From NCBI GenBank assembly GCA_037893245.1, contig JBAIAA010000886.1, forward strand, positions 682,001 to 746,000: a DNA stretch of 64,000 nucleotides, given 5' to 3'. The DNA is from Crossaster papposus. Lineage: Eukaryota; Echinodermata; Asteroidea; Velatida; Solasteridae. This document shows, one piece after another, positions 10,016 to 15,539 of this stretch; position 1 is the stretch's first letter, and the number at the start of each line of letters is the position of its first letter. A program made the translations under genes and the position numbers. The notes beneath the pieces were generated by a model. It saw only the letters and a program-made list of their open reading frames with translations, was not told where the DNA came from and ran no database searches.

Positions 10016-10428
10016 CTAAAAATTGCGAAGTTTGAGGCCCGAGATGTCTGTTTTGTGTTTTTATCACTCTTGCTGTTTAGGTTTGCCCCGCTATTTTAAA
10101 ACATTTTCATTCAAATTCACCAACCTAGATTCGAAGCACATCAGGAATTTCAGGTTGAGAGCTCAGCAAGAGCTACAGTCTCTGACCAACCCAAGTAAGT
10201 TACATTTTGGGGCTGCATGGCCAATACCCATAGATCATCAAATTACTACTAATAATAATAATAATAATAAACATTTATAAAGCTCTCTTACACATGGTAT
10301 CACAGCGATGATTACAGAAAAACAGTCAGATATAGTGAAGGTGATAACAATTAACGAATAAACAAAAAGGTTTTGAGAGAGTTCTTGAATCTTCAAGTGA
10401 CTGTACCCTACTAGAAAAATCAGTCATT

Positions 10429-10865
10429 AATTGGTCATCATTAGTAGAATTGGGCATCATTTGGTCATCACTGGGCAAAATCATCATTATTTGGGCATCA
10501 ATGGTCATCATTCAGGCATCAATGGTCATCATTCAGGCATCAAAAGGCATCAATGGTCATCATTCAGGCATCAAAATGCATCAAAATGCATCAATGGTCA
10601 TCAATGGTCATCATTCGTCATCATTCAGGCATCAAAATGCATCAATGGTCATCATTAAGGCATCAAAGTGTCATCAATAGGCATCATAAGGCATCAATGC
10701 TCATCATTCAGGCATCAAAATGAATCAAAGTGTCATCAAAAGGCATCAATGGTCATCATTTAGGCATCAAAATGCATCAATGGTCATCATTATGGCATCT
10801 TAAGGCATCAAAGTGTCATCAATAGGCATCAATGGTCATCAAGAGGTATCAATGGTCATCACAAA
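10429..10865 (+). repeat. Left subterminal GCATCA/TCATCA array
   Basis: More than 400 bp of short words such as GGCATCAA, TGGTCATCATT and AATGCATCAA. The local unit is 10-30 bp. It starts right after the left terminal repeat and runs in the opposite sense to the right array. Confidence 0.9.
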
Positions 10866-10950
10866 CTGACATCACATCATCATACAGTCCTCACAGTGGA
10901 TGACTGTTGTGAAATTTCCAAAGAAAGAGGCATCATATAATTCAAAAACA

Positions 10951-10999
10951 AAGTTTCAGTCATCAAAGCTAGAGGATGACTCTTTGATGACTGAAACTT
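10951..10999. other. Perfect hairpin, 18 bp stem and 13-nt loop
   Basis: AAGTTTCAGTCATCAAAG at 10951-10968 is exactly complementary to 10982-10999, with a 13-nt loop between. The stem contains the GTCATCAAAG word of the neighbouring array. It could be an intra-element recombination signal or a folded transcript element; the role is unknown. Confidence 0.9.
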
Positions 11000-11006
11000 A
11001 GTTTAA

Positions 11007-11049
11007 TTTCTCAAAGTCCATTGATGCAATTAATATGGACTTTGAGAAA
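11007..11049. other. Perfect hairpin, 15 bp stem and 13-nt loop
   Basis: TTTCTCAAAGTCCAT at 11007-11021 is complementary to 11035-11049, also with a 13-nt loop, and lies eight bases after the first hairpin. The matching loop sizes and tight spacing suggest a designed pair, not chance. Confidence 0.9.
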
Positions 11050-11746
11050 CTATACTCTTCGTATTACCCACCGTATGTTATGTAGACAGTTGGTGAAATG
11101 GACATTTTAACTAACTTTTTTGTTACACACATCTTTGAAACAAGTGAGTTTTTACGTGGCATGTCACATTTTGTATTTTTAGTCCCCAAAACTGTTTTTT
11201 TTTTAGTATTTTGTTACGATTTTTCTGTTTAGGGGCAATAAAGTCAATTGAACAGCAATTCGGACTATGTCAAAATAGTTATTTCTGTGTTTAGTAAACA
11301 TGACGCGGCGCGCGGCAGCCAGCCAATAACGTTTCACGAAAACAGAACAAATTGATACAATGTAACAATGTTCGCGTCCTACATGCATATCCCATGCACT
11401 AGACCGAATTTCTCCCATTAAAAATTATAATAACTTCTGTTAGGTCAAACCAAAAATCCATTCCCCATTCATTACCCAGGTGGCATATGGTATACTACTT
11501 ATATAGAGGTCAATAGGTTATAACTACCTTGGCATGCAGTGACCACCACAAGGCCAAGGGGTAATAAAAGTATGTCCACTGGGATGTGCTCTATCCAATA
11601 GAGAGGTCTAACTGGGATTTGTTTAAAAGGGAGAAATTCTTAACCGTCACTTCGGTGTAGTTTTTCGAAGCAGCTAGTCGCTACATAATTAAATAATACT
11701 AGTTGTTTGACAATCGAACATACAACAATCTATATTGTTTGGCACA

Positions 11747-13295
11747 ATGACCTCGCTCTTGGGCTTGGATGTCAGCAATCTTCTTCATGACAACACAAAA
11801 CATTGTCAGCAGAAAAAGAAATCCTGCCTGGTTTTCTGGGTCGATGATCAAAAGACCAGCATCGAGCCACTGTCGGCTGTAGTCAACGAAGAGCATCGCG
11901 AGGAAGGAGCCACAGGAATGGTGAGGTGGAAAGGGCCGGAGAGGAAATCTTACAAAGCAAAGATTTTGAAAATAAGTGGTAAGTTGACTTATTGCATTAT
12001 GTTTAAACAAATAAAAGCTACACAATTAGTAATTAAATAATACCAATGTAGTCGTAGGGGCCTAGGCCTAGTACGGTAGTAGTCCTCTGCATCAACAACA
12101 GAGCCCTCCACATCGCAGAGCCCAAGACAACAGGAGGTGACTGCCAAAGCACCGACCGTGAACCCCCAAGTCGACAACAAATGGCACTGGTGTGTCGAGA
12201 CTGATGTATGTATTTTTTAAAATTAGTTCTGTACTTTTTTTGTTGTGTTTTCTTTAGGTATTGGATTTCTCAAACTTTGGTTCGAAACCAGACCATATGA
12301 ATCTGAGAGTAACACATTACCGTGTATTACCGTTTTAGAGTAAAATGCTGACCCCCACACCCAAATTTCAGATCTTTTTTTCGGAACGGACAATTTCATC
12401 TGAATTTTTTTACATACATGTACATGTAGAGAAAGAATTCAAACTGACTTGAAATATTTTGAAAAGAATTCTTTGTTTCGGCAAAGAAAATTTGACTGAA
12501 CCAGGACTTGAACCTCTCGGGTTCGAATCCGTGTTCAGTCAAATTGTCTTTGCTCAAATTAAAAAATTAAGTTTTTTAGGTGCAACTTAATTTGTTCTTT
12601 TCTTTATTTTAATGCTTTATTAGAGCTGTGGCATTCCTAAAGTTCAACTGCATCCAGGTGTTTTTGTCAATCAAAAACAATTGCATGCAGTGAAATCATC
12701 ACTGTCTTCCAAAGAGACGAAAGGACTGAAGGTGGTTCTTCGTAATCTTCTCTTGACCCTCTTCTCCAGGGAAGAACTTGCAAAATCATGTTGTAAGGGC
12801 CAGAAGGGCAAAGATGATGACCATGAGGCCCTGCCAGAAAAAGCTGTTCAAACTGCTAAAAGTAAGTAATGTGTCTGTTTGTTAACTGGAGTACACTTGC
12901 ATCCCTTTTTCACCTCATGCTTTATTGTGAGAAAGATGTTACCACCTGAGAAAATATTTGTCTTTTCACTTCCGAGTTCAAAAATGCTTTATGTGTACTG
13001 TCATGTGAGCCCCATAAAATAACAGGTATTCCCAGTTTGGCAATCTCTGAAAACCACGAGGCTTGTGGCTACACCACATACATCAATTTTGCAACAAGAG
13101 AAAACAATGCAGATGTTAGTACTGTGGTTCCACTTGGTCATACAAACTTGTTTAGTAATGTTTTTCTTTTCTTTTCTAGGTTTCATCTATCAACTGGCAC
13201 TGGAAAATGACATCCCACCGTTAAAGAACACGGATGTAGTCAGAATCATAAACAGTGCATGTTACAATGCCAGGCGTGCATCCAAGGCCATGTAG
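11747..13295 (+). CDS. BEN-domain protein, four exons
   Basis: Exons 11747-11978, 12102-12205, 12624-12861 and 13180-13295 have consensus donors (gtaagt, gtatgt, gtaagt) and AG acceptors, and their phases agree (1, 0, 1). They encode 229 residues with no interruption. Residues about 28-77 resemble the small beta domain often found ahead of BEN domains (SCLVFWVDDQKTSIEPLSAV, then TGMVRWKG and KSYKAKILKISG). A short proline-glutamine linker follows. Residues from about 113 to the end match a BEN domain: VQLHPGVFVNQKQLHAVKSS, RNLLLTLFSREELAKS, then DVVRIINSACYNARRASKAM. BEN domains are known to bind DNA and chromatin partners, so a nuclear role is likely. The in-frame stop at 11708-11710 supports the chosen ATG. 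It is the only gene in the surrounding inverted-repeat element, which suggests cargo or a silencer or regulator of the element. Confidence 0.85.
12481..12552. repeat. Intronic inverted repeat with tRNA B-box-like words
   Basis: About 34 bp arms (12481-12514 and 12519-12552) pair with about four mismatches around a TCTC loop, in intron 2 of the BEN gene. The right arm holds GGTTCGAATCC, a perfect match to the tRNA B-box consensus, and the left arm holds GGTTCAAGTCC on the minus strand. There is no A box or cloverleaf, so it is not a tRNA gene. Confidence 0.75.
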
Positions 13296-13461
13296 ACATG
13301 TACAATGTATTATACGCATACACAAATTCAGAAAAGTCGTTGCGTTTTTCCATGTTAGTCTTGCAGGCCTGGTGTTGTAGCATGCACTGTTTAAAGGCAC
13401 TATATACATGTAGGATTGGTAAGGAAAACAAATGCATAGTTTCAACAATAGTTTTAATCAA

Positions 13462-13467
13462 AATAAA
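13462..13467 (+). promoter_or_regulatory. Candidate polyadenylation signal of BEN gene
   Basis: AATAAA lies about 165 bases after the BEN gene stop codon and before the right subterminal array, a suitable place for the 3' end of its transcript. Confidence 0.45.
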
Positions 13468-13799
13468 CACAATATGAATGTGCACTAAATAATTTTTTAA
13501 ATAGAGCTTTTCAACACTGTCATTGTTTACAAGCCCATAACTATTTACCTGCATTATGATTAAGATTACGTAAAGCACCTGTGAAAACCAAATCGAACAC
13601 CTAACCACAAGGCCATATGCTCTGTACATTGTACATTAAAGGGGTACAAATTTAATGCACTCATGGAACAAATACTTGAATGCAACAATAGAATAAAAGG
13701 AAGCAACCACGGCTGAATTTCTTTTTCTATGTGATGCCTTTGAATTTTTCTGCTTTTTCTGCTTTTTCGTGCCTTTTCTGATGCTTTTCAGTGATTGGT

Positions 13800-14550
13800 T
13801 ATATATTTAGTGCCTTTTATTTGAACTAATGACTGTTTGATGCCTGATCGCAACTGATGCCTGTTTGATGCCTGATGTTGCCTAATCACAACCACTGACT
13901 CTTTGATGCCTGTTTGATGCCTCTTTGATGCCTGATCACGCCCAATGAATCCTTGATGCCTGTTTGATGCCTAATTATACACCCGATGACTCTTTGATGC
14001 CTGATTACACCTGATGACTCTTTGATGCCTGGTTGATGCCTGATCACAACTGATGACTCTTTGATGCCTTTACTCTGATCACAACTGATGACTCTTTGAT
14101 GCCTGACTGATGACTCTTTGATGCCTGACTGATGACTCTCTGATCACTGACTGATGACTCTCTGATCACAACTAATGACTCTTTGATGCCTTTACTCTGA
14201 TCACAACTGATGACTCTTTGATGCCTGACTGATGACTCTCTGATCACTGACTGATGACTCTCTGATCACAAATGATGACTCTTTCATGCACTCTTCAAAA
14301 GTCATCTAACTACAGTTATCAGGCATCAAAGAGTCAAATGTTGTGATAACATTTTGATGCCTGATCACAACTAATGACTCTTTGATGCCTTATTTGCACA
14401 AAGGGTCATCAAATAGTCATCATTCTGATAACTGTTGATGATATATCCCTATTTGTTTCATTATATTGAGGGTTCCAATTGCTGCCCTTTTAATGCCTTT
14501 GATGCCTTTTGGGCATCAATGCTACTGCGATCACCAAAATCAGTCATCTG
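13800..14550 (+). repeat. Right subterminal GATGCC/TGATGACTC array
   Basis: About 750 bp of words such as TGATGACTCTTTGATGCC and CTGATCACAACTGATG, the reverse-complement flavour of the left array. It includes recent duplications: the block at 14050-14165 recurs near 14180-14280. It ends at the right terminal repeat. Confidence 0.9.
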
Positions 14551-14721
14551 ATGACTGATTTTTCTAGTAGGGTAGTGACCAGTCAAATAGCCTTGTATTG
14601 TTTTATACAGAAAAATCATACATGGTGTACATGTACACTTTATACTGTATATGTATATTATTATTATCATGTGATCTTAACCAAGTGATGGTGTAACCGT
14701 CTTTCACGAACCCAGCTTATA

Positions 14722-15539
14722 ATGAAGACTGCAGCTAGGCTGCGAAATCTACTCATAGTAGATATCCTTCTGACCCAGGCGCCTCGGGCAGGCGTCATTG
14801 AGAACGCCACACTTGGCGAATTTCGGCAGAGGAAGAATCATACTCTACCAAGGACCTTTGAGGAGATTACATCTTTTCAGGTGAAACTCTTTGTGAAAGT
14901 TGACCGAGAGCACAATGACTTTACCATAAATTTAAATTCATAAATTCATTAGTACCAAACATTATCATTTAGTCACAGCACAGTTCCTGGTGAACTAATA
15001 CAAACTAATTTGAAGAGGGTGGGGTTTACCCCAATTGGGTGATTTGACACAAAATAACCCAAAGTCAATTTGTTGTAGGTTGCCAAGCATAAGACGGCAA
15101 GGGCTGGGCCGGCCGTAATATGTTGTCATCAAGAAACAAGAGCTTTCCTGGAGTACTATGTCCAGTATGGTCGGCCAGTATCCAGGTGTAATGGTGAGCA
15201 AATACACTGTAGGTCAAAGTTCTTTACAGGATTTCTGTTCCATGTATTTTGTCTATCTTTAGCACCACACGTACCTTGCATTAAAGAGACGTACATTGTA
15301 GTCATAAGTTGGAGAATCTTTGATTGGAATGTATATTTTATGTTCACATACTTAGTACAGGTACATGTATTTAAATTTGTTTAGGAGTTGACATCCTCTC
15401 AGACTCCAGTCCACTGTTTTTAACCAGCAAGGGCCCAGCTGTGACAAAAGTGGCCCAACATGTTCAAGCCACTTGGAGGTCAATGGATTTGCCTGGGGCA
15501 ATAAATCCCACAATCATAAGGAAAACCTTGGCAACAAAG
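14722..15539 (+). pseudogene. Tyrosine-recombinase-like gene, three exons visible
   Basis: Three exons fit in phase: 14722-14880, 15079-15193 and 15385-15539. Exon 1 has LRNLLIVDILLTQAPRAGVI and the NATLGEF box, where the first catalytic arginine of tyrosine recombinases sits. Exon 2 has VAKHKTARAGPAVI, the usual place of the beta-hairpin lysine, and a YYVQYGRP end. Exon 3 has SPLFLTSKGPAVTKV, TWRSMDLPGAINPTIIRKTLATK, which matches the second arginine box. The pattern resembles Crypton-like and related domesticated recombinase domains of invertebrates. No clear exon with the final tyrosine follows, and the BEN-carrying element ends only about 150 bases upstream, so the gene is probably incomplete. 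It could be a Crypton-derived host gene. Confidence 0.55.

Follow-up and report, generated by a model that had tools for sequence, protein, structure and literature searches.

Why should an intact gene for a BEN-domain protein lie between the inverted ends of a transposon-like element in the genome of the sea star Crossaster papposus? The original prediction, made on the 64-kb stretch of contig JBAIAA010000886.1 analysed here (hereafter the window), offered two explanations: capture of a host gene by a non-autonomous element, or a class of elements whose mobility or silencing involves a BEN protein. BEN domains are known from chromatin factors and viral proteins, and a pairing of BEN genes with EnSpm transposases would tie these domains to mobile elements and would give a named candidate for the second, repeat-binding protein in animal CACTA relatives. 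We consider it probable that the window carries a transposase-less TRC copy of a two-gene element, whose BEN protein would bind the end repeats and assist or regulate transposition in the manner of TNPA.

Ends, target sites and class of the element

The element occupies positions 10406-14572 (4167 bp). It is bounded by a perfect 22-bp terminal inverted repeat (TIR), CCCTACTAGAAAAATCAGTCAT, on the forward strand at 10406..10427 and on the reverse strand at 14551..14572, and by a TA target site duplication at 10404..10405 and 14573..14574, of which one TA is retained in the empty-site alignment. The inverted ends had been predicted to be perfect over 24 bp; perfect they are, with the empty sites dividing the 24 bp into the 22-bp TIR and the 2-bp TA. 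These two are the sole TIR matches in the 64-kb window with up to 3 mismatches allowed, and two matches arose in 0 of 100 shuffles. Empty sites were looked for, as the prediction had suggested, and exact ones with one TA were found. In a search with the window flanks joined by one TA, 11 of 40 matches spanned positions 1-331 full length, at 84-95% identity to the joined flanks. Of the five empty sites that were fetched, two, both on C897, show no difference across the junction (GACTG-TA-GTGACCAG), and the remaining three depart from it nearby by substitutions and short indels. Because the empty sites carry TA once and the flanks are multi-copy, the insertion must have struck a single member of a multi-copy repeat. 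That repeat, visible at 10280-10403 and 14575-14780, has at least 11 uninterrupted relatives in the genome. Three frames flanking the element have no Pfam match.

Two-bp duplications, read by eye, flank all five copies whose two ends and flanking sequences were available: TA at the window and C107 copies, CG at C886:620162-623466, AT at C568 and TT at C285. Copy ends start with CCC, barring some mutated ends such as the right end at C568 (TACTACTAG). The animal CACTA relatives (TRC) have CCC core ends and 2-bp direct repeats in the portion of their description used here (PMC1636069), and the window family, with its CCC ends and 2-bp duplication, therefore fits that description. Transposase_21 (tnp2), a further TRC criterion, is present in C107 and at C305 and absent from the window copy. 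The plant-type CACTA terminus is absent, the ends reading CCCTA, with one mismatch. The window element is a non-autonomous CACTA/EnSpm (CMC) copy of the animal TRC branch, a class already known.

The complementary subterminal arrays are as predicted. The left array (10428..10885, forward strand; families D1 and D2) repeats the motif G[TG]CATCA inward, and the right array (13806..14550, reverse strand; families D3-D7) repeats the same motif in opposite orientation. In the left 480 bp the motif points inward 31 times, with 0 copies on the other strand; in the right 760 bp the corresponding counts are 30 and 4. Shuffle means are 4.2 (left) and 2.2 (right). The arms of C107 hold it inward 23 and 31 times, and other-strand counts across the window and C107 arms are 0 to 4, with shuffle means of 1 to 4. 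Arrays inverted between the ends, as in plant-type CACTA elements, are present in both copies. Between the left array and the BEN gene of the window lie two dispersed repeats of ~175 bp each (11116-11291 and 11469-11643), whose copies elsewhere are mostly 92-94% and 76% identical; they are likely later insertions into the element.

The BEN gene of the window copy

The uninterrupted four-exon gene of the prediction holds up: it encodes a stop-free protein of 229 aa on the forward strand, and all introns are GT-AG with compatible phases. Exon 1 (11747..11978) encodes a conserved N-terminal region and is 75% identical to exon 1 of C107. Exon 2 (12102..12205) is delimited by phase-compatible GT-AG sites, exon 3 (12624..12861) holds the first half of the BEN domain according to the gene model and domain comparisons, and exon 4 (13180..13295) carries the end of the domain and the stop codon according to the gene model and a structure-database match. 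The genome BEN search with the window protein used an earlier 236-aa model, the start of exon 2 having later been set by splice phase. The large BEN intron contains, at 12469-12565, a 46-nt inverted repeat, 78% complementary, with a 5-nt loop.

The window protein scores 12.9 bits against the Pfam BEN model, below the cut-off of 23.2, and solved structures were therefore compared. By itself, the protein aligns with NACC1 across residues 89-226 (5.4e-5). The matches of a six-row profile are BEND6 (6.4e-8), NACC1 (8.8e-7 and 1.2e-6), 4ix7 'RE55538p', which we take to be insensitive (5.9e-6), and, weakly, Blastoderm-specific gene 25A (0.0033); four of the six profile rows were chosen by the Pfam BEN model, so the profile is biased towards BEN. 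Judged by sequence, the window protein is a match to BEN domains, and on this point too the prediction stands, the sub-cut-off Pfam score notwithstanding. For the N-terminal region, no Pfam family scored above its cut-off. DUF4806, which the part of the paper drawn on treats as a BEN subtype (PMC11075544), was rejected as the source of the domain, having 2 sub-threshold matches in the genome. Structure prediction for exon 1 gave four strands at a pLDDT of 55.4, too poor for use, and the poor fold predicted for exon 3 (pLDDT 60.7) returned no PDB match from Foldseek.

Between the window and C107 genes dN is 0.186 and dS 0.631 (Fisher 2.5e-10 on rounded counts), and the BEN gene has been under constraint between these two subfamilies. 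Comparison of the window gene with its closest relatives at C568, C17 and C545 gives pN/pS of 0.028/0.034, 0.041/0.082 and 0.065/0.093; changes among recent copies look close to neutral, as expected for decaying copies.

Other copies and a two-gene relative

The first 16 bases of the element end have ten exact matches in the 1.02-Gb genome; allowing up to one mismatch raises the number to 25, compared with 9 for a reversed control pattern. By DNA, the window copy is most closely related to pieces at C568, C545 and C17, mostly 84-98% identical, and to the left array at C305. A larger element of 15,698 bp, at C107:141283-156980, has the same ends and arrays as the window copy. Its BEN gene has four exons without stops, encoding a protein 72% identical to that of the window, and an 841-aa ORF matches Transposase_21 at 3.3e-9, above cut-off; the two genes are divergently transcribed and enclosed together by a single pair of ends, flanked by a single 2-bp duplication. 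In the transposase, the candidate motifs DGAQ (256), CPVC (364), HQLLH (579) and FESLN (602) follow in the expected order, with the second D placed by eye; EnSpm is defined, in the sections of the source used here, by C(2)C and H(3-4)H motifs between the second D and the last E (PMC12730594). In the window, no match to transposase turned up at E values of up to 1. Because C107 joins both genes to these same ends and arrays, the window copy is a derivative without transposase, and capture of its BEN gene as a one-off event is not supported.

Only C107 and C285 were seen to enclose both genes between their ends, the latter having both ends, stop-bearing transposase frames and a BEN gene reduced to its 3' exons. 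The prediction had also proposed asking whether other copies carry BEN genes, with copies that lack BEN and bear a known transposase counting against it, and the answer is divided: C107 carries both, while C305 has an end, a left array 85-88% identical to window DNA and transposase pieces with a Transposase_21 match, with no BEN match nearby among the matches listed. In the stretches searched, BEN exons occur without a transposase match in the window, at C568 (in part) and at C886:620162-623466.

At C17:586111-599237 (G000, L019-L032), about six copies of the element's left half are arranged in tandem at ~1.6 and 2.3 kb spacing; the unit comprises the array and BEN exons 1-2, a transposon fragment amplified satellite-like. 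The C305 copy has the remnant of another, more distant EnSpm transposase immediately beyond its left end (L015:1289-3479). At C160:292735 (L011) there is a canonical CACTACTAGAAAAATC end whose inner sequence differs, and which possibly represents a related CACTA-ended family; no mate was found for it within 9.5 kb with up to 4 substitutions allowed.

Genome-wide pairing of BEN and transposase genes

We merged all 56 matches of the C107 transposase into 51 loci, near-identical duplicates included, and compared them with a BEN set composed of 22 of 44 window-protein rows (further exons of the same copies being omitted), all 67 Pfam-model rows and 6 extra. A BEN-gene match lies within 15 kb of 15 of the 51 transposase loci, where 0.13 were expected, at distances of up to 13.4 kb. 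Orientation is divergent at 13 of these 15 (binomial 9e-7, a value that assumes independent loci, which these are not). Several loci are near-identical (C103/C191/C616, C234/C423), and the 15 are therefore not 15 independent events; by eye, they form about ten groups by identity. The BEN domain itself is matched at 10 of the 15, eight by the Pfam model plus C107 and C285, three of the eight (C359, C234, C423) scoring below the BEN cut-off. At the other five (C131, C616, C191, C103, C283) the N-terminal exon alone is matched, at 43-47% identity. Transposases at the paired loci are 32-100% identical to that of C107, and BEN-gene matches adjoin even those that are merely 32-46% identical. BEN exon peptides from four paired loci, C728, C344, C686 and C234, share 23-28% identity with window exon 3. 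Long open transposase frames also have BEN-gene matches beside them.

THAP, another domain found in transposons, served as a control: none of the 51 loci has a THAP match within 15 kb, the nearest being 15.4 kb away (150 scored of 1710 candidates; distances taken over the 18 contigs common to both lists). No BEN match lies within 15 kb of 36 of the 51 transposase loci, which reflects either search sensitivity or BEN-less families. The prediction had recognised no described family of this form; the class is in fact known, and what stands of that claim concerns the BEN gene, since we found no description of BEN as the second gene of EnSpm/TRC elements in the literature searched (Repbase being outside that search). 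The BEN-EnSpm pairing may be new.

Discussion

BEN genes often stand beside related transposase genes, and the BEN protein therefore probably aids movement or control of the element. Complete elements would pair a gene for a tnp2 (Transposase_21) DDE transposase with a divergently transcribed gene for a BEN-domain protein. The window copy has kept both ends, both arrays and an intact BEN gene without the transposase gene, and was thus presumably mobilised by transposase made elsewhere. Judging from this anatomy, the BEN protein most likely binds the G[TG]CATCA repeats at both ends; it may help to bring the ends together for the transposase, and may regulate expression of the element, the part that TNPA plays in maize Spm. 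Our best reading, by analogy, is that BEN would be the animal counterpart of plant TNPA. The element class envisaged by the prediction is supported as an association with BEN. Established are the ends, the duplication, the empty sites, the two-gene relative, the genome-wide association and the constraint on BEN between two subfamilies, to which we add, by inference, binding of BEN to the arrays and a part in transposition or repression.

Chance capture of a host BEN gene as cargo by one non-autonomous element would suit a window copy that has no transposase match, and BEN is a known host domain in animals. However, BEN also lies within the C107 and C285 elements, and BEN matches adjoin many related transposases genome-wide, including those 32-46% identical to that of C107, with 13 of 15 pairs divergent; capture is largely refuted, and we regard it as highly improbable. 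The proximity of the two genes might instead reflect independent elements nested in the same repeat-rich regions. Room for nesting is left by the distances of up to 13.4 kb, by the near-identical duplicates among the 15 loci, by the five loci that match the N-terminal exon only, and by divergent families that are known here from gene matches. Against nesting stand divergent orientation at 13 of 15 loci, 0 of 51 loci with THAP within 15 kb (150 scored of 1710 candidates), and C107, where both genes share a single pair of ends and 2-bp duplication; we regard it as improbable.

Repression is the main rival of the TNPA-like reading, and both need not exclude each other. BEN might act solely as a regulator, a transposon-encoded repressor or chromatin silencer, with BEN-only copies as repressor-producing derivatives comparable to the KP elements of the P family. 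Several BEN proteins are described, in those parts of the literature drawn on, as repressors or chromatin boundary factors, and the copies that keep BEN exons without a transposase match would agree with such a role. Against it, near-neutral change in recent copies gives no sign that BEN-only copies are retained for repression, and BEN-gene matches accompany long open transposase frames as well; a solely regulatory role therefore seems unlikely to us. In a bolder extension, which we consider doubtful, BEN proteins would be the standard DNA-binding accessory across a large clade of animal EnSpm elements and would diversify along with the subterminal repeats of each family; some host and viral BEN proteins might then derive from transposon genes, and not the other way round.

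The TNPA-like reading can be set beside known systems. NACC1, BEND6, insensitive and Elba2 share the BEN domain by sequence; they are host proteins, and we know of no transposon ends associated with them. Maize Spm/En resembles the BEN element in its Tnp2-type transposase, its short subterminal repeat arrays, its deletion derivatives moved in trans and its second DNA-binding protein, a part that BEN would play here, and differs in its CACTA ends and in a TNPA spliced from the same transcription unit. The Spm target duplication is 3 bp. A second protein, fast-evolving and binding the end repeats, is needed by CACTA elements of plants; the candidate reported for the animal element SmTRC1 had no detected relatives (PMC1636069). 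Within the material consulted, TNPA recognises the Spm subterminal repeats, and transposition requires it together with TNPD; deletion derivatives can be served in trans by both proteins (PMC2613891). Animal TRC/EnSpm elements (SmTRC1 of Schistosoma; TRC of Tribolium and Aedes) share with the window family, as far as the excerpted account extends, the Transposase_21 gene, 2-bp direct repeats and a CCC core, the Tribolium TIR starting CCCTAGTAG... and that of the window family CCCTACTAG... (PMC1636069). The extra proteins PrA and PrB of SmTRC1 arise by splicing and are given in that account as without detected relatives (PMC1636069), whereas the second gene of the C107-type element is separate, divergent and encodes a BEN domain. 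Fungal transposons with TET/JBP genes likewise carry an extra chromatin-related gene and count EnSpm among their lineages in the portion of the report used here, with a dioxygenase in place of BEN and fungi as hosts (PMC12730594).
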